64,000 nt of DNA from Azoarcus olearius (GTDB lineage Bacteria > Pseudomonadota > Gammaproteobacteria > Burkholderiales > Rhodocyclaceae), in NCBI RefSeq assembly GCF_001682385.1, contig NZ_CP016210.1, positions 1,488,001-1,552,000 of the forward strand, given 5' to 3'. The stretch's first letter is position 1. Each line of letters starts with the position of its first letter. The position numbers and the translations under genes were made by a program. This document shows, one piece after another, positions 5,101-63,885 of this stretch. The notes under the pieces are model-generated. The model was not told where the DNA came from and made no database searches. It saw only the letters and a program-made list of their open reading frames with translations.

Positions 5101-6091
5101 CTGGCGCGAGGCGGGCAACGGCACGCTGGTCGCCCGCTTCGCCCGCCTTGCGGTGGGCGACAAGGACGACGTTTCCACCTCCGCCGCGGACGAGGCTCCC
5201 ACCGACCCGCCGCCGCGCAGCCTTCCCGGGCTCGATGTCACGGTGGCGCAGCTCTCGCTGCGCGGGCAGCCGCTGGGCCGCCTCGAAGTGCTGGCGCTCA
5301 ACCGCGACCGGCAGTGGGTGCTGGAACGCTTTGCACTGTCGCGGGCGGAAGGCCGGCTGGCGGGCCACGGGTTGTGGCGGCCGGGGAACGACCCGCGTAC
5401 CGAACTGGATTTCCGTCTCGAAAGCGCCGACGCCGGCCGGCTGATCCATGCCCTCGGTTATCCGGACGCAGTGCGCGGCGCCCCGGCCGAACTGCGGGGC
5501 AAGCTCGCCTGGCGCGGCGCGCCCACGCGCATCGACTATCCCACGCTCGCCGGCAACATGACGGTGGAGGTCGAGAAGGGGCAGTTCAACAAGCTTGAGC
5601 CGGGCGTCGGGCGCTTGCTTGGCATCCTGAGCCTGCAGTCGCTGCCGCGGCGGATCACGCTGGATTTCCGCGACGTCTTTTCCGAGGGTTTCGCCTTCGA
5701 TCGCATTTCCGGTAGCATCGATGTGCGTGCCGGAGTGATGCGCACCGAGGATCTGGAGATCCGCGGACCTGCGGCCCGCGTGCTGATGCGAGGCTCTGCC
5801 GACGTCAGTTCCGAAAGCCAGGATCTGCGCGTGACGGTTCAGCCGACGCTGTCGGAGTCGGTGGCGATCGGTGCCGCCGCCGCTTTGATCAATCCGGTTG
5901 CTGGCGCGGTGACCTATCTGGCACAGAAGGCGTTGAGCGACCCGATCGAAAAGCTGTTTGCGTACGAGTACGCAGTCACTGGTGCGTGGGACGATCCCAA
6001 GGTGGAAAAACTGGGTTCGCCCGCCGAGAACCTGATTCCCCAACTACCGCGCGCGCAGCCCGCTCCGCGTTCAGGCTCTACTGCCCCATGA
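2168..6091 (+). CDS. yhdP: YhdP family AsmA-like inter-membrane lipid transport protein
   Basis: A 1307-residue giant protein with one N-terminal membrane helix (about residues 28-49), a long periplasmic beta-rich body (DUF3971 type) and an AsmA-like C-terminal part near residues 1150-1290. In enterobacteria YhdP, TamB and YdbH are bridge-like proteins moving phospholipids between inner and outer membrane; that role is assumed here from family membership. An in-frame ATG lies further upstream at 2108, but MSDEADSPLSS at 2168 gives a normal short cytoplasmic tail before the helix and is preferred. The stop overlaps the ATG of the nitrilase gene by 4 bp, which implies translational coupling. 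The order glnE (divergent), yhdP, nitrilase, tldD is a familiar betaproteobacterial arrangement. Confidence 0.9.
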   Translation: MSDEADSPLSSVPPARARACALLRLWGGRLAVAGLGVWIAFAALFLVLREFVLPNVDAYRAEVEAGLTEALGAPVAIEHLSGDWSGMRPRLHLTGLALRDAEGRPALRLERVDATLGWLSLAQLRPFFHRLEIDGPDVAITRRADGRLEIAGMTMDDGPSDGSFLDWLLAQRQIVVRDAALTWTDELRGAPPLRLSQVQFRLERSFHRHRFALQAQPPAQLASALDLRGELQQLVPQTPAASVGKLYVALDHADLGGWRQWVDYPVALSGSGGLRAWIDLEADGRQAITTDVSLAGVETRLGDSLPVLQLARLGGRLTGRRLAHGFEVGAQGLSLLTGDGIRLAPTDFHLQVRHDGDSGGAGGFVRANQLDFAALAALAAHLPFDDSVRARLAAFDPRGRVDDLRLDWRGELDALQDWSVAAHFNDIGLAARDGIPGLGGLSGQVEGNLRGGRFRLDGRDTHLDLPEVFVESRLLFSTFRAEGGWSRADQRLEITLDSAGFDNPDAAGTASGRFWPGAEGAGEIDLQARLTRAEGTAVWRYLPRVVNRDTHDWVRNAIRQATVPDTRLRLKGRLADFPFRKGEGQFLVAIQVADAVLDYAPGWPSIEGIFGEVRFEGPGLRIAANRGRIFGVALSDVVAQVPDLDAPPSEVMTLTGKAAGSTADFLRFVSESPVAERIDRFTDAMRAEGTGTLDLKLVMPLRHARDTSVQGEYRFSGNRMWVVDGLPALEDAVGRLRFTADELVIPEVRARLFGEPMALAARTSADGAVSFSASGKVTAAGVQRAYGWQVLNHFAGASPWQAEIAVRREGTRVDVRSALDGIASSLPYPLNKTTADAWPLHLALDYPAGTHGSTLKLSLADRVQVELERRAGDARPGGVVRGGVGVFQPVRVAERGVLVAATLDELDVDGWRRALGLSGGDEGAEGTAAALPLAGVALQAKHAQVFGQRFSDLSLRAVADAGGWRARLDSTQAQGEFDWREAGNGTLVARFARLAVGDKDDVSTSAADEAPTDPPPRSLPGLDVTVAQLSLRGQPLGRLEVLALNRDRQWVLERFALSRAEGRLAGHGLWRPGNDPRTELDFRLESADAGRLIHALGYPDAVRGAPAELRGKLAWRGAPTRIDYPTLAGNMTVEVEKGQFNKLEPGVGRLLGILSLQSLPRRITLDFRDVFSEGFAFDRISGSIDVRAGVMRTEDLEIRGPAARVLMRGSADVSSESQDLRVTVQPTLSESVAIGAAAALINPVAGAVTYLAQKALSDPIEKLFAYEYAVTGAWDDPKVEKLGSPAENLIPQLPRAQPAPRSGSTAP

Positions 6092-39519: not shown

Positions 39520-40266
39520 ATGAAACATCCAGAGATCTGCATCCAGTGGCCGCATGCTGATGAGTACATAGGCATCAATACTGACCATCTGGATGGTCAC
39601 GCGCACATCACCAAGACACGCGAGTTCAAGAGAGAGACTGATGAAGTAATTGACCTGCTGCCAGACTGCGTGATTCAACGGGATGAGTCTGGGAGTACAA
39701 CGTTTGTGCTGACCTACCGTAAGGAGAAGCATCCGGAGCTAGAAGGATCGGCGTACAGGATGTTATGGGGTGTGTCGACTATTAGAATCGAACCGGGGCA
39801 GGAGCACGGAAAGACAGAATGGGAAAGCTCTGAAATCGGGGATGACAGCGGATATGCGCGCTGGGCAAGAGTCTCAGAAGTCATCAGCAAGCGGGTAGAA
39901 TATGAGATTACGAAACGAATTAAAAGAAAACAGCAGAAATTCAAAGATCATCTATTGCGGGGCAGCCAAGCCTGTGCTGTAACGGGAGAAACAACGATAG
40001 AGATCCTTGATGCGGCCCATATCGTCGACTCGGCAGCAGGTGGGGCAGAAACCGAGGAGAACGGGCTGTTGCTTAGAACAGATATTCATCGCTTATGGGA
40101 TTGCGGCTTGATCGAAATCGATCCGGAGGGTGAGGTTCGCATCATTGGGGTGCTTTCGAAAGGGTATTTGAAGCTTATTGAGGGGCGGCGAATTCCAAGA
40201 GTTACCTTGGAACGTACAAAAACTGCCTTGCAGAAAAGATGGGATGAGCGACTCTCCAAAGAGTAG
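39520..40266 (+). CDS. HNH endonuclease (HNH_2 family)
   Basis: A 248-residue protein with an unrecognised N-terminal half and a C-terminal HNH_2 nuclease domain: Cys152 in ACAVTG, AAHI (His167), ENGLLL (Asn181) and IHRLWD (His190), the usual spacing for HNH_2. The ATG at 39520 follows GGAGG at ideal distance; an upstream TTG at 39475 was rejected. Such stand-alone enzymes are common in defence islands and restriction modules. The gene is separated from herA by 314 bp, so it probably has its own promoter. Target and partner are unknown. Confidence 0.85.
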   Translation: MKHPEICIQWPHADEYIGINTDHLDGHAHITKTREFKRETDEVIDLLPDCVIQRDESGSTTFVLTYRKEKHPELEGSAYRMLWGVSTIRIEPGQEHGKTEWESSEIGDDSGYARWARVSEVISKRVEYEITKRIKRKQQKFKDHLLRGSQACAVTGETTIEILDAAHIVDSAAGGAETEENGLLLRTDIHRLWDCGLIEIDPEGEVRIIGVLSKGYLKLIEGRRIPRVTLERTKTALQKRWDERLSKE

Positions 40267-42858: not shown

Positions 42859-42948
<90 letters not shown>

Positions 42949-55068: not shown

Positions 55069-57552
55069 ATGAACTCACCCGACTTGCCGGTTGCCGATGC
55101 GGCGACCGCCGCCAGTGATTCCGACTGCTATCACTGCGGCCTGCCGATTCCGTCCGATACCCACCACTACGTGCGGATCGACGGCGCCAACCGCCGCATG
55201 TGCTGCATCGGCTGCGAAGCGGTCGCGCGCTCGATCGTCGATAACGGTCTGGAAGATTACTACCGCCACCGCGACGCGATGCCGGAGTCGCGCCGCGAGG
55301 CGATGCCGCCGGAACTCCAGGAACTCGGCCTTTTCGATCACCCTGATTTCCAGAAGTCCTTCGTGCGCCCCGTGGGGGAGCACGAGCGCGAGGCCTCGCT
55401 GATTCTCGAGGGCATCACCTGCGCAGCCTGTGTCTGGTTGAACGAACGCCACGTGGCGCGCCAGCCTGGGGTCTCCGCGGTCGACATCAACTACGCTACC
55501 CGTCGTGCCCGTGTGCGGTGGGACGAGCGCCAGATCAAGCTCTCCGACATCCTGAGTGCGGTCGCGGCGATCGGCTATCGTGCATATCCCTACGACGCCG
55601 AGCGCTCGGAGCAGATCGCGCACCGTGAGCGCCGCTCGATGCTGTGGCGAGTGTTCGTCGCCGGCTTCGGCATGATGCAGGTGATGATGTACGCGGTGCC
55701 GGTGTACATCGCGCGCGAAGGCGAGATGACCGCGGACATCGAAGCCTTGATGCGCTGGGCCAGTCTGCTGCTGACGCTGCCGGTCGTCCTGTACTCTGCA
55801 GCGCCGTTCTTCCGCCGCGCTTGGCGCGATCTGCGTCTGCGCCGTCTGGGCATGGACGTGCCGGTCGCGCTCGGCGTCGGAAGCGCCTTTCTCGCCAGCC
55901 TTTGGGCAACGCTGACAAACGGTCCCGAGGTCTATTACGACTCGGTGACGATGTTCGTGTTCTTCCTGCTTGGAGGGCGTTATCTCGAAATGCTCGCGCG
56001 CCAGAAGGCGGTTCGGGGCGTGGAGGAGCTTGGAAAGGTCATTCCGGCGTTTGCGGAGCGGCTGGACTCTGCGGGCGAGTCCTCGCGCGTTCCCGTTTCT
56101 GAACTCGCGGTCGGTGATCTGGTGCGAGTGCGTCCCGGCGAGGTGATTGCAGCTGACGGGGTCGTGGAGGATGGCCGCAGCGACGCCAACGAGGCTTTGC
56201 TGACCGGCGAAAGCAAGCCGGTGTCGAAGACCTCTGGCGATCCAGTCACCGGCGGCAGCATCAATATATCCAGCCCCCTGGTGTTCCGAGTGGAGCAGGT
56301 GGGCGACGCGACCCGATTGGCGGCGATCCGGCGCCTGATGGAACGGGCTGCCGAAGAGAAGCCACGCGTGGCGACGCAGTCCGACCGGGTGGCGGGTATC
56401 TTCATTGTCCTGCTGCTGGTGCTGGCCGCGGCAACGGGCATCGGCTGGTATCTCGTCGAACCGCAACGCGCACTGTGGGTGTTCGTCTCCGTCCTCGTGG
56501 TCGCCTGTCCGTGCGCGCTGTCGCTGGCGACGCCCACCGCGCTGACCGTGGCCACGGACGTGCTCGCGCGGACGGGCGTTCTCGTCACGCGAGGCCATGC
56601 GGTCGAGACGCTCGCCCGCGTCAACCACGTGCTGCTGGACAAGACCGGCACCTTGACCCGGGGCCGAATGACGCTGGTCGAGGTGGTGCCCCTGGCAGGC
56701 GTGGCGGAGCAGGAGGTACTACGGCTGGCGGCTGCGCTTGAGGCCGGTTCGGAGCATCCGATCGCGGCGGGCCTGCGCGAGGCTGCGCCCAAATCCACGT
56801 CGGTGGCGACCGAGGTAATGGTGGAAACCGGACAGGGTGTGGGCGGCGTGGTCGACCAGCAGCCGCTGTGGGTGGGACGGCCCGATTTCGTCGCAGGCCA
56901 CGCCGGTGTGAGTCTGCCGTCCTGTCTCGCCGAGGTCGAAGCGCGCGGCGGCAGCGTCGTTGCACTTGGTTCGGCGTCTGAAGTGCTCGCGCTGTTCCGC
57001 CTCGCCGACGTATTGCGCCCGGAGGCTCCGGAACTGGTCCGCAGATTGGCCGACGACGGAGTGAAGGTCAGTCTGCTGTCGGGAGACGCGCCTACCGTTG
57101 TCGCTGCGACGGCGGCGGCTCTCGGGATAGAGGATGCCCATGGCGGGATGACGCCGCAGGGGAAGCAGGCCTACATCGTCGGCTTGCAGCAGCGCCCGGA
57201 GGCGGTGGTCGCAATGGTCGGGGACGGCGTCAATGACGCGCCGGTGCTCGCCCAGGCGCACGTCTCGGTTGCGATGGGCGGAGGAACGGATCTCGCCCGC
57301 AACCAGGCGGATATTGTTCTGCTCGGGGAAGACCTGTCATCCCTCGCGCGGGGCATGGTGCTCGCACGGCAGACGCTGCGGATCATCCGGCAGAACCTGT
57401 GGTGGTCCTTCATCTACAACTTCACGTCGGTGCCGCTGGCGATGGCGGGACTGGTCACGCCGTGGATGGCAGGTATCGGCATGGCGGGCAGCTCGCTGCT
57501 GGTCGTGCTCAACGCGATGCGCCTGCAGCGCGGCCGTCGCAACAGGTATTGA
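55069..57552 (+). CDS. ccoI: Copper-exporting P1B-type ATPase for cbb3 oxidase assembly (CcoI/FixI)
   Basis: An 827-residue P-type ATPase needed to supply copper to the CuB centre of cytochrome cbb3. An N-terminal cysteine-rich segment (CYHCGLP near residue 20; MCCIGCEAVA near residue 45) and a heavy-metal-associated domain with GITCAACVWL precede eight membrane helices. The CPC metal site (VVACPCALSLATPTAL), the phosphorylation motif DKTGTLTRG, LLTGES, the SEHPIA nucleotide motif and GDGVNDAPVLAQA are all intact. The next gene, ccoS, follows after 4 bp. This ATPase is placed ahead of ccoN rather than in the usual ccoGHIS order. Confidence 0.95.
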   Translation: MNSPDLPVADAATAASDSDCYHCGLPIPSDTHHYVRIDGANRRMCCIGCEAVARSIVDNGLEDYYRHRDAMPESRREAMPPELQELGLFDHPDFQKSFVRPVGEHEREASLILEGITCAACVWLNERHVARQPGVSAVDINYATRRARVRWDERQIKLSDILSAVAAIGYRAYPYDAERSEQIAHRERRSMLWRVFVAGFGMMQVMMYAVPVYIAREGEMTADIEALMRWASLLLTLPVVLYSAAPFFRRAWRDLRLRRLGMDVPVALGVGSAFLASLWATLTNGPEVYYDSVTMFVFFLLGGRYLEMLARQKAVRGVEELGKVIPAFAERLDSAGESSRVPVSELAVGDLVRVRPGEVIAADGVVEDGRSDANEALLTGESKPVSKTSGDPVTGGSINISSPLVFRVEQVGDATRLAAIRRLMERAAEEKPRVATQSDRVAGIFIVLLLVLAAATGIGWYLVEPQRALWVFVSVLVVACPCALSLATPTALTVATDVLARTGVLVTRGHAVETLARVNHVLLDKTGTLTRGRMTLVEVVPLAGVAEQEVLRLAAALEAGSEHPIAAGLREAAPKSTSVATEVMVETGQGVGGVVDQQPLWVGRPDFVAGHAGVSLPSCLAEVEARGGSVVALGSASEVLALFRLADVLRPEAPELVRRLADDGVKVSLLSGDAPTVVAATAAALGIEDAHGGMTPQGKQAYIVGLQQRPEAVVAMVGDGVNDAPVLAQAHVSVAMGGGTDLARNQADIVLLGEDLSSLARGMVLARQTLRIIRQNLWWSFIYNFTSVPLAMAGLVTPWMAGIGMAGSSLLVVLNAMRLQRGRRNRY

Positions 57553-57556
57553 CGCT

Positions 57557-57766
57557 ATGGAAACCCTCTACCTGCTGATTCCTTTGTCCGTGGTGCTGGT
57601 CTTCGTGATCGGCGTCGTGTTCTGGTGGTCGTTGAGGGACGGGCAGTACGACGACCTGGAGGGGCCCGCATACCGCCTGCTGCTCGACGACCGCGACGAA
57701 CTCCCGGCCAAACCCGCCGACACCGACAAGCCCATGCCGGATTCACCGGACCGGCGCGATGTTTGA
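57557..57766 (+). CDS. ccoS: cbb3 oxidase maturation protein CcoS
   Basis: A 69-residue single-span protein: METLYLLIPLSVVLVFVIGVVFWWS is the helix, followed by the invariant GQYDDLEGPAYRLLLDD. CcoS is required for cofactor insertion into the oxidase. It follows ccoI closely. Its stop codon lies inside the upstream FNR-type box of the proposed small RNA. Confidence 0.92.
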   Translation: METLYLLIPLSVVLVFVIGVVFWWSLRDGQYDDLEGPAYRLLLDDRDELPAKPADTDKPMPDSPDRRDV

Positions 57767-57803
57767 TCTAGGTCAATGCCTGCCGCCGCGATAAAGGCAT
57801 ACT
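57763..57803 (+). promoter_or_regulatory. FNR/ANR-type box and -10 of the proposed small RNA promoter
   Basis: TTGATCTAGGTCAA (57763-57776) matches TTGAT-N4-ATCAA with one mismatch. CATACT (57798-57803) is a -10-like hexamer. With class II geometry (site centre at -41.5) transcription would start at about 57811. The box overlaps the ccoS stop codon. Confidence 0.6.
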
Positions 57804-57810
57804 GCAGCCA

Positions 57811-57909
57811 TGGATTTCCTGTTGCCGGTGAGCCTTCACGGGCAACAACTGCAGGACTTATGGCTCTCTGTTGGGGTTGGGGGTGCGTTCAATACGCACC
57901 CTTTTTTTT
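57811..57909 (+). ncRNA. Candidate FNR-regulated small RNA
   Basis: The predicted start (57811) to the end of the T-run (57909) gives about 99 nt. It would contain a stem-loop at 57821-57846 (GTTGCC/GGCAAC with inner GTGA/TCAC and loop GCCT), a roughly 34-nt single-stranded linker including GGCTCTCTGTTGGGG, and a terminator stem-loop GGGTGCGT/ACGCACCC followed by eight T. This is the layout of Hfq-type sRNAs. An ATG at 57810 opens a frame that runs through the terminator without a stop, so a protein is unlikely. FnrS of enterics and FNR-controlled sRNAs of Neisseria are known analogues by regulation only; no sequence homology is claimed. Confidence 0.5.
57881..57909 (+). terminator. Strong intrinsic terminator
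   Basis: Eight base pairs (GGGTGCGT with ACGCACCC), a 5-nt loop and TTTTTTTT. It would end both ccoI-ccoS readthrough and the proposed small RNA. Confidence 0.85.
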
Positions 57910-57982
57910 CGCCTCGACCCTCCCGCTGGTGTATCGTTCACGGTTTACTCGCCTGCTCGATTTGCGGGGTCAGTCTCACTTC

Positions 57983-58003
57983 ATTGCACCGTTGCGGTGC
58001 AAT
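57983..58003 (+). promoter_or_regulatory. Perfect NtrC-type palindrome
   Basis: ATTGCACCG-TTG-CGGTGCAAT is a perfect 9+3+9 inverted repeat. Its core TGCACC-N5-GGTGCA (57985-58001) equals the NtrC (NRI) consensus. It lies 7 bp upstream of the ccoN FNR box. No sigma-54 promoter (GG-N10-GC) follows it before ccoN. Another dimeric regulator with the same half-site is possible. Confidence 0.5.
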
Positions 58004-58009
58004 AGAATC

Positions 58010-58050
58010 TTGATCTGAATCAAGTTCAGGAGTCGACCCGAGGGTATCCT
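58010..58050 (+). promoter_or_regulatory. ccoN: Consensus FNR/ANR box and promoter of ccoNOQP
   Basis: TTGATCTGAATCAA (58010-58023) is a perfect TTGAT-N4-ATCAA box. TATCCT (58045-58050) lies at -10 for a start near 58058, class II geometry identical to the upstream box. The leader of about 75 nt contains two hairpins (TCCTTC/GAAGGA at 58047-58066; CCAGCC/GGCTGG at 58073-58091). Confidence 0.75.
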
Positions 58051-58132
58051 TCCGACGGTTGAAGGATCATCGCCAGCCTGGGTCCGGCTGGTCGGTAGGC
58101 TTTACAAGGGGTTTTTAACTAAGAGGTGACTC

Positions 58133-59557
58133 ATGCAATCGCAAGCGACTTATAACTACAAAGTCGTGCGCCAGTTCGCCATCATGACGGTGGTGTGGGG
58201 CATTGTGGGCATGCTAGTCGGCGTCATTGCCGCGGCACAGCTCGTATGGCCCGAACTGAACGTTCACGAGTGGCTTGGCTACGGCCGGCTTCGTCCGCTC
58301 CACACCAATGCGGTCATCTTCGCATTCGGTGGGTGCGCGCTGTTCGCAACGTCCTATTACGTCGTGCAGCGCACCTGTCACACCCGTCTGTTCGCGCCGG
58401 GTCTGGCGGCCTTCACCTTCTGGGGCTGGCAACTGGTCATCGTGCTGGCTGCGATCACGCTTCCGCTCGGTTTCACCTCCGGTAAGGAGTATGCGGAGCT
58501 GGAGTGGCCGATCGACCTGCTGATTGCGGTTGTGTGGGTTTCCTATGCGGTGGTGTTCTTCGGTACCGTTGCCAAGCGTACCGTCGCTCACATCTATGTC
58601 GCCAACTGGTTCTACGGTGCTTTCATCATCACCGTCGCCCTGCTGCACATTGTTAACAGCATGGCAATTCCGGTCAGCCTTACCAAGTCCTACTCGGCGT
58701 ACGCCGGTGTCCAGGACGCCATGGTTCAGTGGTGGTACGGCCACAACGCTGTCGGCTTCTTCCTGACGGCGGGCTTCCTCGGCATGATGTATTACTTCGT
58801 GCCGAAACAAGCCGATCGTCCGGTCTACTCGTACCGCCTGTCCGTGGTGCACTTCTGGGCGCTGATCTTCACCTACATGTGGGCAGGTCCTCACCACCTG
58901 CACTACACGGCCCTGCCGGACTGGACCCAGTCCGTCGGCATGATCTTCTCGCTGATCCTGCTGGCTCCGTCGTGGGGTGGCATGATCAACGGCATCATGA
59001 CCCTGTCGGGCGCCTGGCATAAGCTTCGTACCGACCCGATCCTGAAGTTCCTGATCACCGCGCTCTCGTTCTACGGCATGTCGACCTTCGAAGGCCCGAT
59101 GATGTCGGTGAAGACCGTCAATGCGCTCTCCCACTACACCGACTGGACCGTGGGTCACGTGCACTCCGGCGCGCTGGGCTGGGTTGCGATGATCTCGATC
59201 GGCTCCGTGTATTTCCTGCTGCCGCGCCTGTACGGCAAGACCGAGATGTACAGCGTGAAGTTGATCAACGCCCACTTCTGGATCGCGACCATCGGCGTCG
59301 TGCTCTACATCGCCTCGATGTGGATCGCCGGCGTGATGCAAGGTCTGATGTGGCGTGCGACCAACCCGGACGGCACCCTGACCTACTCGTTCGTGGAAGG
59401 CGTCAAGGCGAGCTATCCGTTCTGGTCGATCCGCCTTCTGGGTGGCGTTCTGTTCCTGACCGGCATGCTGATCATGTTCTACAACATGGTGAAGACCATC
59501 GCGGGCGAAAAGGCTTACAACGCCCCGGTCATCGCGCCTGCCGCCGCTCACGCCTAA
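58133..59557 (+). CDS. ccoN: cbb3-type cytochrome c oxidase subunit I (CcoN)
   Basis: The 474-residue catalytic subunit with about twelve membrane helices. It reduces oxygen to water at a heme b3-CuB site with very high affinity. Ligand-bearing motifs are visible: [13 protein letters not shown] (His57, low-spin heme b), [12 protein letters not shown] and AGPHHLHY (CuB histidines), and [14 protein letters not shown] (heme histidines). The ATG follows AAGAGGTGA, a good ribosome binding site. It is the first gene of ccoNOQP under FNR-type control. Confidence 0.97.
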
Positions 59558-63808: not shown

Positions 63809-63885
63809 TGGCGCGCCCGGAAGGATTCGAACCTCCTACCCCCTGGTTCGTAGCCAGGTACTCTATCCAGATGAGCTACGGGCGC
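63809..63885 (-). tRNA. tRNA-Arg (anticodon ACG)
   Basis: A 77-nt tRNA: acceptor GCGCCCG/CGGGCGC, encoded CCA, anticodon stem CCTGG/CCAGG enclosing CTACGAA (anticodon ACG, read as ICG), T-arm GGTTCGAATCC. It is followed on its strand by the bidirectional terminator. A TATTAT -10-like element (minus strand, 63978-63983) lies upstream, with its -35 beyond the window edge. Confidence 0.96.

Follow-up and report, generated by a model that had tools for sequence, protein, structure and literature searches.

The question raised by this locus is whether the gap between the genes that we take, from their position, to be ccoS and ccoN of Azoarcus olearius holds a gene of its own, and what the product of such a gene would do. 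The original prediction, made on the window (the whole stretch of 64,000 nucleotides that was analysed), placed here a self-contained small RNA unit responding to oxygen, with a logic like that of FnrS, and offered a leader controlling ccoN as the alternative. On the strength of promoter analysis, genome comparison and pairing predictions, we consider it probable that 57763–57909 is an FNR-activated gene for a trans-acting repressor sRNA, which would silence oxygen-linked functions. The features at this locus, in window positions, are the following.

57557–57766, forward strand: ccoS, the upstream neighbour (open reading frame)
57763–57776, forward strand: FNR-type box TTGATctagGTCAA, candidate promoter of the sRNA (motif scan and conservation)
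57798–57803, forward strand: −10 element CATACT, spaced from the box as at class II sites
57811–57909, forward strand: predicted sRNA of about 99 nt, with a modelled start at 57810 or 57811
57817–57856, forward strand: 5′ stem-loop, the variable carrier part, structured and not conserved in sequence
57864–57883, forward strand: conserved seed CTCTCTGTTGGGGTTGGGGG, complementary to the ribosome-binding sites of predicted targets
57879–57909, forward strand: terminator stem-loop with eight T, its 5′ arm overlapping the seed
58010–58023, forward strand: promoter box of ccoN, a perfect FNR box separate from that of the sRNA (motif scan)
58133–59557, forward strand: ccoN, the downstream neighbour (open reading frame, family search for ccoN)

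The box in front of the predicted RNA differs from TTGATN4ATCAA at a single position, as had been claimed, and overlaps the ccoS stop codon (57764–57766). Three boxes with at most one mismatch occur in the 64-kb window, against a mean of 0.57 in shuffled sequences, namely this one, the perfect box of ccoN and one at 40108. The last of these (40108–40121) carries one mismatch. The first base of CATACT lies 28.5 nt from the centre of the sRNA box and the predicted start is near 57810/57811, which together place the box near −41.5. This promoter does not appear in the list returned by a sigma-70 promoter scan of the 1.7-kb region, because the scan needs a −35 element, without which class II sites stand. 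In addition, we recorded the motif TGCAATA(C/G)AAT at 58000–58009, directly 5′ of the ccoN FNR box, which many of the 30 aligned loci share and which could be a second −10 element that FNR would block.

Relatives carry the same arrangement. An FNR-type box with at most two mismatches lies within 150 nt of the seed in 121 of 124 distinct loci and further up, within 215 nt, in two more (L049 and L063), giving 123 of 124 in total, whereas the same kind of box was found in only 50 of 714 random 150-nt windows drawn from these loci. In 112 of the 123, the −10 element begins 28 or 29 nt from the box centre, and it is this conservation of box and spacing together that raises the sRNA promoter above chance. 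The conserved box foreseen for relatives, and the class II geometry expected of an FNR-activated sRNA, were thus both found. A match to the FNR family (NF008365; 251 bits, above the cut-off) is encoded at contig positions 1554461–1555165, some 8.5 kb away from the RNA and 2.5 kb past the window end, and Hfq is also encoded in the genome.

The boxes themselves comprise six that are perfect, 57 with one mismatch and 60 with two, the commonest two-mismatch form being TTGACCTAGGTCAA-like. As other Crp/Fnr-family regulators may read this last form, the same trans-acting sRNA might instead answer to one of them, for which proteins of the DNR/NnrR type are candidates, and the signal would then be nitric oxide or nitrate respiration and not oxygen; the Rhodocyclaceae (Thauera, Azoarcus, Aromatoleum and others) indeed include many denitrifiers, as well as many degraders of aromatic compounds. 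We regard this as unlikely in view of the 63 boxes with no or one mismatch, the same type of box at ccoN and the nearby FNR family match, and we therefore retain FNR as the predicted activator.

At the other end of the unit, the terminator stem occupies 57879–57903 and the T run extends to 57909, confirming the terminator with eight T; the three terminator-like sites found in the 1.7-kb scan, compared with 1.5 in shuffles, are on their own not significant. For the predicted 99-nt transcript, the folding energy is −39 kcal/mol (z −3.3), which none of 200 shuffles equalled. The two-stem-loop transcript of the original prediction is upheld in this respect, but sequence conservation does not extend to its first stem-loop. 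An alignment of the 30 best loci revealed no clear sequence shared among the 5′ halves, although the folds of these halves are more stable than those of dinucleotide shuffles (median z −2.2, with 57% below −2, in 116 loci). Conservation letter for letter is instead a property of the linker CUCUCUGUUGGGGUUGGGG and the terminator, the core being almost invariant among 66 distinct sequences. The seed has a predicted unpaired probability of only about 0.44 in the folded RNA (median over transcripts), which speaks to some extent against its free pairing with targets. The covarying stems that had been anticipated did not materialize: the terminator stem, including its lower part GGGTGCG/CGCACCC, is almost invariant, and variation on both sides is limited to the apical pair, so that covariation was dropped as a proof of structure. 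A Rho-independent terminator of its own and a conserved seed, as expected of a trans-acting sRNA, are nevertheless both present.

We also considered whether the gap might encode a small protein, either within 57776–58018 or with the ATG at 57810 as its start. The region does contain open frames of 80 and 67 aa, and ATGG stands near the expected start in 48 of 123 loci, with a frame running through the seed in 35 of those 48. However, ATGG is missing from the other 75 loci, frame lengths scatter from 3 codons upwards, the frame crosses the terminator and the 5′ halves have no common sequence. The absence of ATGG and the scatter of lengths led us to reject a small protein as highly improbable, in agreement with the earlier view that no frame in the gap fits a protein gene convincingly.

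Given the conservation of the 3′ half, we examined the distribution of the RNA. When the DNA of the locus was searched against 199 genomes of the family, most strong matches started at about position 119–126 of the query, which corresponds to the linker and not to the box or the first stem, and the 30 best all lay between ccoS and ccoN. A 54-position model of the 3′ half, built from 66 distinct cores, matched 117 of 150 family genomes at E values up to 1e-7, with one match per genome except for one genome with two on two contigs. In an order-wide search with this model (399 genomes), all 15 matches above 50 bits fell within the family of the window. The outside-family matches that we checked were L204 (genome G264, 38 bits), L205 and L209; the first proved to be an ordinary terminator after an unrelated gene, and the two weaker ones are likewise plain terminators after unrelated genes. 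An exact 27-mer was found in 77 contigs among 84,980 species genomes, with titles that are mostly Rhodocyclaceae, Azoarcus, Thauera and Aromatoleum and include one Hydrogenophilus; 71 of these contigs adjoin ccoN, five hold too little DNA and one (L037) does not adjoin it.

Such proximity to ccoN is what a premature-termination leader or attenuator acting in cis would predict, and 105 of the 117 copies indeed lie 129–392 nt (median 192) upstream of ccoN on the same strand. The remaining 12 comprise three copies from one genus (g36) that lie on a different contig, two that are likewise separated from ccoN by contig but come from fragmented assemblies, four at 1.7–20 kb from ccoN and three in genomes without a ccoN match. 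Seven copies away from ccoN (L219–L225, i.e. the three of that genus and the four at 1.7–20 kb) retain the box at 0–2 mismatches, which makes a ccoN leader very unlikely. In addition, the RNA has its own terminator, followed by the separate perfect FNR box of ccoN, and the antisense sites described below depend on the presence of the RNA. Among the 150 genomes the association with ccoN is not constant, since ccoN was found in 138 at the cut used and 24 genomes have ccoN with no match to the RNA model. These distributions favour the self-contained, FNR-driven unit over the leader alternative. The one exception to the box among the 124 loci, L089 (seed at 5424, reverse strand), has an outer-membrane-protein-type gene, presumably ompW-like, between the promoter region and the seed, upstream of ccoN; its stop codon directly precedes the seed, and the sRNA core thus forms the 3′ UTR of that gene.

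To look for targets, we searched the antisense of the 20-nt seed at up to three mismatches in the 199 family genomes, with the reversed pattern as control. The comparison between genomes with and without the RNA covers the 150 genomes that were run with the model, one match per genome (two in G102) being discounted as the RNA itself. The 117 genomes with the RNA contained 100 further antisense sites compared with 15 for the reversed pattern, whereas the 33 genomes without it contained two and four respectively. At least one further site was present in 59 of 117 genomes with the RNA and in two of 33 without (Fisher p 1.6e-6, with relatedness ignored). The excess of antisense sites is thus restricted to genomes having the RNA.

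The position of the sites was assessed for 53 of them, i.e. for the 51 fetched among the matches listed, less L236, which comes from a genome without the RNA, and with three from the present genome added. Among these, a frame of at least 60 aa starting with ATG followed within 60 nt at 45 of the 53, compared with 26% of random positions, and within 20 nt at 32 of the 53, compared with 10%. One of the eight other sites, L235, stands before a rubredoxin-like gene whose length falls below the 60-aa cut. Placement before an ATG is partly expected, because the site ends in the Shine–Dalgarno-like AGAGAG. Complementary sites at the ribosome-binding sites of mRNAs encoded elsewhere were thus found, with weaker or negative results for cydA across the family and for loose 17-mers (see below). 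It could also be that the RNA is real and driven by FNR but serves mainly to titrate a protein or another RNA, the antisense sites then reflecting C-rich Shine–Dalgarno sequences. As this reading would have it, the lower terminator stem is more constant than termination alone would require, and some of the sites (L117, L157 and L161) fall downstream of a gene, ahead of its terminator, but the confinement of the excess to genomes with the RNA and the above-random placement before start codons make it improbable. We accordingly return to repression of mRNAs as the preferred role.

In A. olearius itself, the 20-nt seed at up to three mismatches has four places, and the reversed control has none. 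These are the RNA, the start of a gene for cytochrome bd subunit I, the start of a gene that we take to be LemA-like (NCBIfam best match MamQ, 95 bits, below the cut-off) and a stretch with a stop codon on one side and a terminator on the other. The cytochrome bd gene, called cydA here, has cytochrome ubiquinol oxidase subunit I as its best NCBIfam match (763 bits, below the equivalog cut-off of 968). Its site, CACCCCCAACCCCAACAGA, offers 19 uninterrupted predicted pairs, with 16 nt between the 20-nt site and the ATG, and the duplex with the seed was calculated at −42.1 kcal/mol by a simple duplex calculation in which mRNA structure is ignored. A looser search with a 17-mer at up to three mismatches gave no excess in this genome, with 12 sites besides the RNA compared with 19 for the reversed pattern. 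Seven of these 12 are just before an ATG-started gene: cydA, the LemA-like gene, a glutaryl-CoA-dehydrogenase-like gene, a small frame, and genes for an enoyl-CoA hydratase, a 2Fe-2S ferredoxin and what is presumably a norC-like protein. The stretch between stop codon and terminator, L117 (G000:C1:792056–792075), follows what we assume to be a mutase-like gene; L157 and L161 are seed-complementary sites in the same kind of position, and all three are possibly sponges or 3′ UTR targets.

Across the family, site genes scoring over Pfam gathering scores include those for Fe superoxide dismutase, Cu/Zn superoxide dismutase, AhpC/TSA peroxiredoxin, glutathione peroxidase, DsrC, isocitrate lyase, Fer2 and FMN reductase/flavodoxin, and those over NCBIfam cut-offs are paaG, thiS and the YfhL ferredoxin. 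Best or near-best NCBIfam matches below the cut-off were boxC and pyruvate kinase (both incomplete in the fetched stretch), nifX, rubredoxin, quinone oxidoreductase, a glutaryl-CoA-type acyl-CoA dehydrogenase and shikimate dehydrogenase. Glutaryl-CoA-dehydrogenase-like genes carry sites in two genera (L177 in G049, and L363 in the present genome) and DsrC-like genes in three (L181–L183, L188 and L228, of which L183 alone was scanned). The gene sodB, which FnrS represses, is present in 139 of the 150 genomes, and its pairing was evaluated in 90, 64 with the RNA and 26 without, using a model that leaves out mRNA structure. Median pairing at the sodB start region was −24.5 kcal/mol with the RNA and −20.8 kcal/mol without (p 0.002), and the difference relative to shuffled seeds gave p 0.0003, both values being optimistic since the genomes are related. 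Strong pairing (z ≤ −2) was predicted in 32 of 64 genomes with the RNA compared with five of 26 without; the strongest case without it is G132, an 81% complete assembly whose congeners G029 and G088 have the RNA. As a family-wide target, cydA is unsupported: a gene for this CydA was found in 42 of the 150 genomes and the pairing is uneven (19 of 30 loci with a start found, while 11 gave no start). Predicted sites at the ribosome-binding sites of cydA, sodB, sodC, peroxidase genes and genes of aerobic catabolism are nonetheless in keeping with the FnrS-like logic that was first put forward.

At the level of sequence, then, the comparison establishes conservation of promoter and seed, a single copy, copies distant from ccoN with a box of their own, an RNA-dependent excess of antisense sites and sites placed before starts. 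We propose that at low oxygen FNR would bind the box and turn on the transcript, of which the constant 3′ half would be the working part. The linker CUCUCUGUUGGGGUUGGGG(G) would pair with CCCCAACCCCAACAGAGAG-like mRNA sequences that include or adjoin the Shine–Dalgarno sequence of the target, blocking translation, most likely with Hfq bound at the terminator and U-tail, and the variable 5′ half would be a carrier that may be cut off. The predicted targets concern oxygen use (cytochrome bd in this genome and aerobic aromatic-CoA pathways), oxygen defence (sodB, sodC, peroxiredoxin and glutathione peroxidase) and some carbon and Fe-S metabolism. A gene beside the cbb3 oxidase would in this way couple cbb3 induction to the silencing of functions unneeded at low oxygen.

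A wider reading, which we advance tentatively and hold to be possible though somewhat doubtful, is that the cbb3 locus of the Rhodocyclaceae carries a dedicated oxidase-choice RNA. Its 3′ seed module would be cleaved from varied carriers (a non-coding 5′ part or, in L089, an outer-membrane-protein-like mRNA) and would silence cytochrome bd, superoxide dismutases, peroxidases and aerobic ring cleavage at the ribosome-binding site whenever cbb3 is switched on by FNR; a regulon like that of FnrS would then have arisen a second time from an unrelated RNA. Even if the narrower proposal alone is right, such a regulon would have evolved independently, its gene would lie inside the locus of a high-affinity oxidase, and the Shine–Dalgarno region of many mRNAs would be read by a long G-rich seed that hardly varies. 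It would also raise the question of whether the RNA shuts aerobic aromatic pathways (boxC, paaG and glutaryl-CoA dehydrogenase) at low oxygen.

With regard to known RNAs, no Rfam family scored over its gathering score at the sRNA locus, and FnrS was not among the matches up to E 10 at 57540–58140. The tRNA genes recognized by Rfam are at 42862–42948 and 63812–63885, both on the reverse strand. Our literature search, which covered texts other than supplements and most subscription papers, returned no description of this RNA and no oxygen-responsive sRNA for the Rhodocyclaceae; the letters of the motif turned up in a single paper, which deals with a human disease. SorY of Rhodobacter (RF02651) resembles the RNA in having a CUGUUGG-like stretch followed by a terminator, but the score of 20 bits (E 0.12) against a gathering score of 111 sets the two apart. 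NarS, PaiI, PcrZ and DenR are described, in the portions of PMC8139620 that concern them, as sRNAs under FNR/ANR-type, low-oxygen or denitrification-linked control, and the relevant part of PMC10247376 presents SicX as a low-oxygen or ANR/FNR-linked sRNA; all five belong to other bacterial groups, and the comparison by sequence covers the Rfam families, none of which reaches its gathering score here.

Closer in form are the double-hairpin RNAs of Burkholderia (ncS27 and relatives), which make up RF02278, and S17S of Bordetella, which according to the relevant portions of PMC5688073 and PMC11722255 resembles that family and is a processed 3′ part. As far as these descriptions extend, and for S17S the likeness is drawn from descriptions and not from sequence letters, the shared traits are a betaproteobacterial origin, short length, a linker with a terminator and a CU-rich stretch aimed at ribosome-binding sites. 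However, the element in the window has no family match, and the two RF02278 genes found elsewhere in this genome (65.9 and 58.8 bits, cut-off 50) differ from it in sequence.

G000:C1:3123770–3123835, reverse strand: RF02278 gene (betaproteobacterial toxic sRNA), L108 (Rfam)
G000:C1:4433843–4433906, forward strand: RF02278 gene (betaproteobacterial toxic sRNA), L109 (Rfam)

The closest parallel in logic is FnrS, which in the account excerpted from PMC8139620 belongs to the FNR regulon and, on overproduction, represses more than 30 mRNAs of aerobic respiration, energy metabolism and oxidative stress, with cydDC among its targets. Unlike FnrS, the present RNA has a different seed, is encoded beside ccoN and is confined, in the genomes searched, to Rhodocyclaceae-type genomes and one Hydrogenophilus. 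Like FnrS, as far as that partial account allows the comparison, it has an FNR-type promoter and predicted targets that include cytochrome bd, superoxide dismutases and peroxidases, a resemblance that would most likely be one of convergence between RNAs unrelated in sequence.
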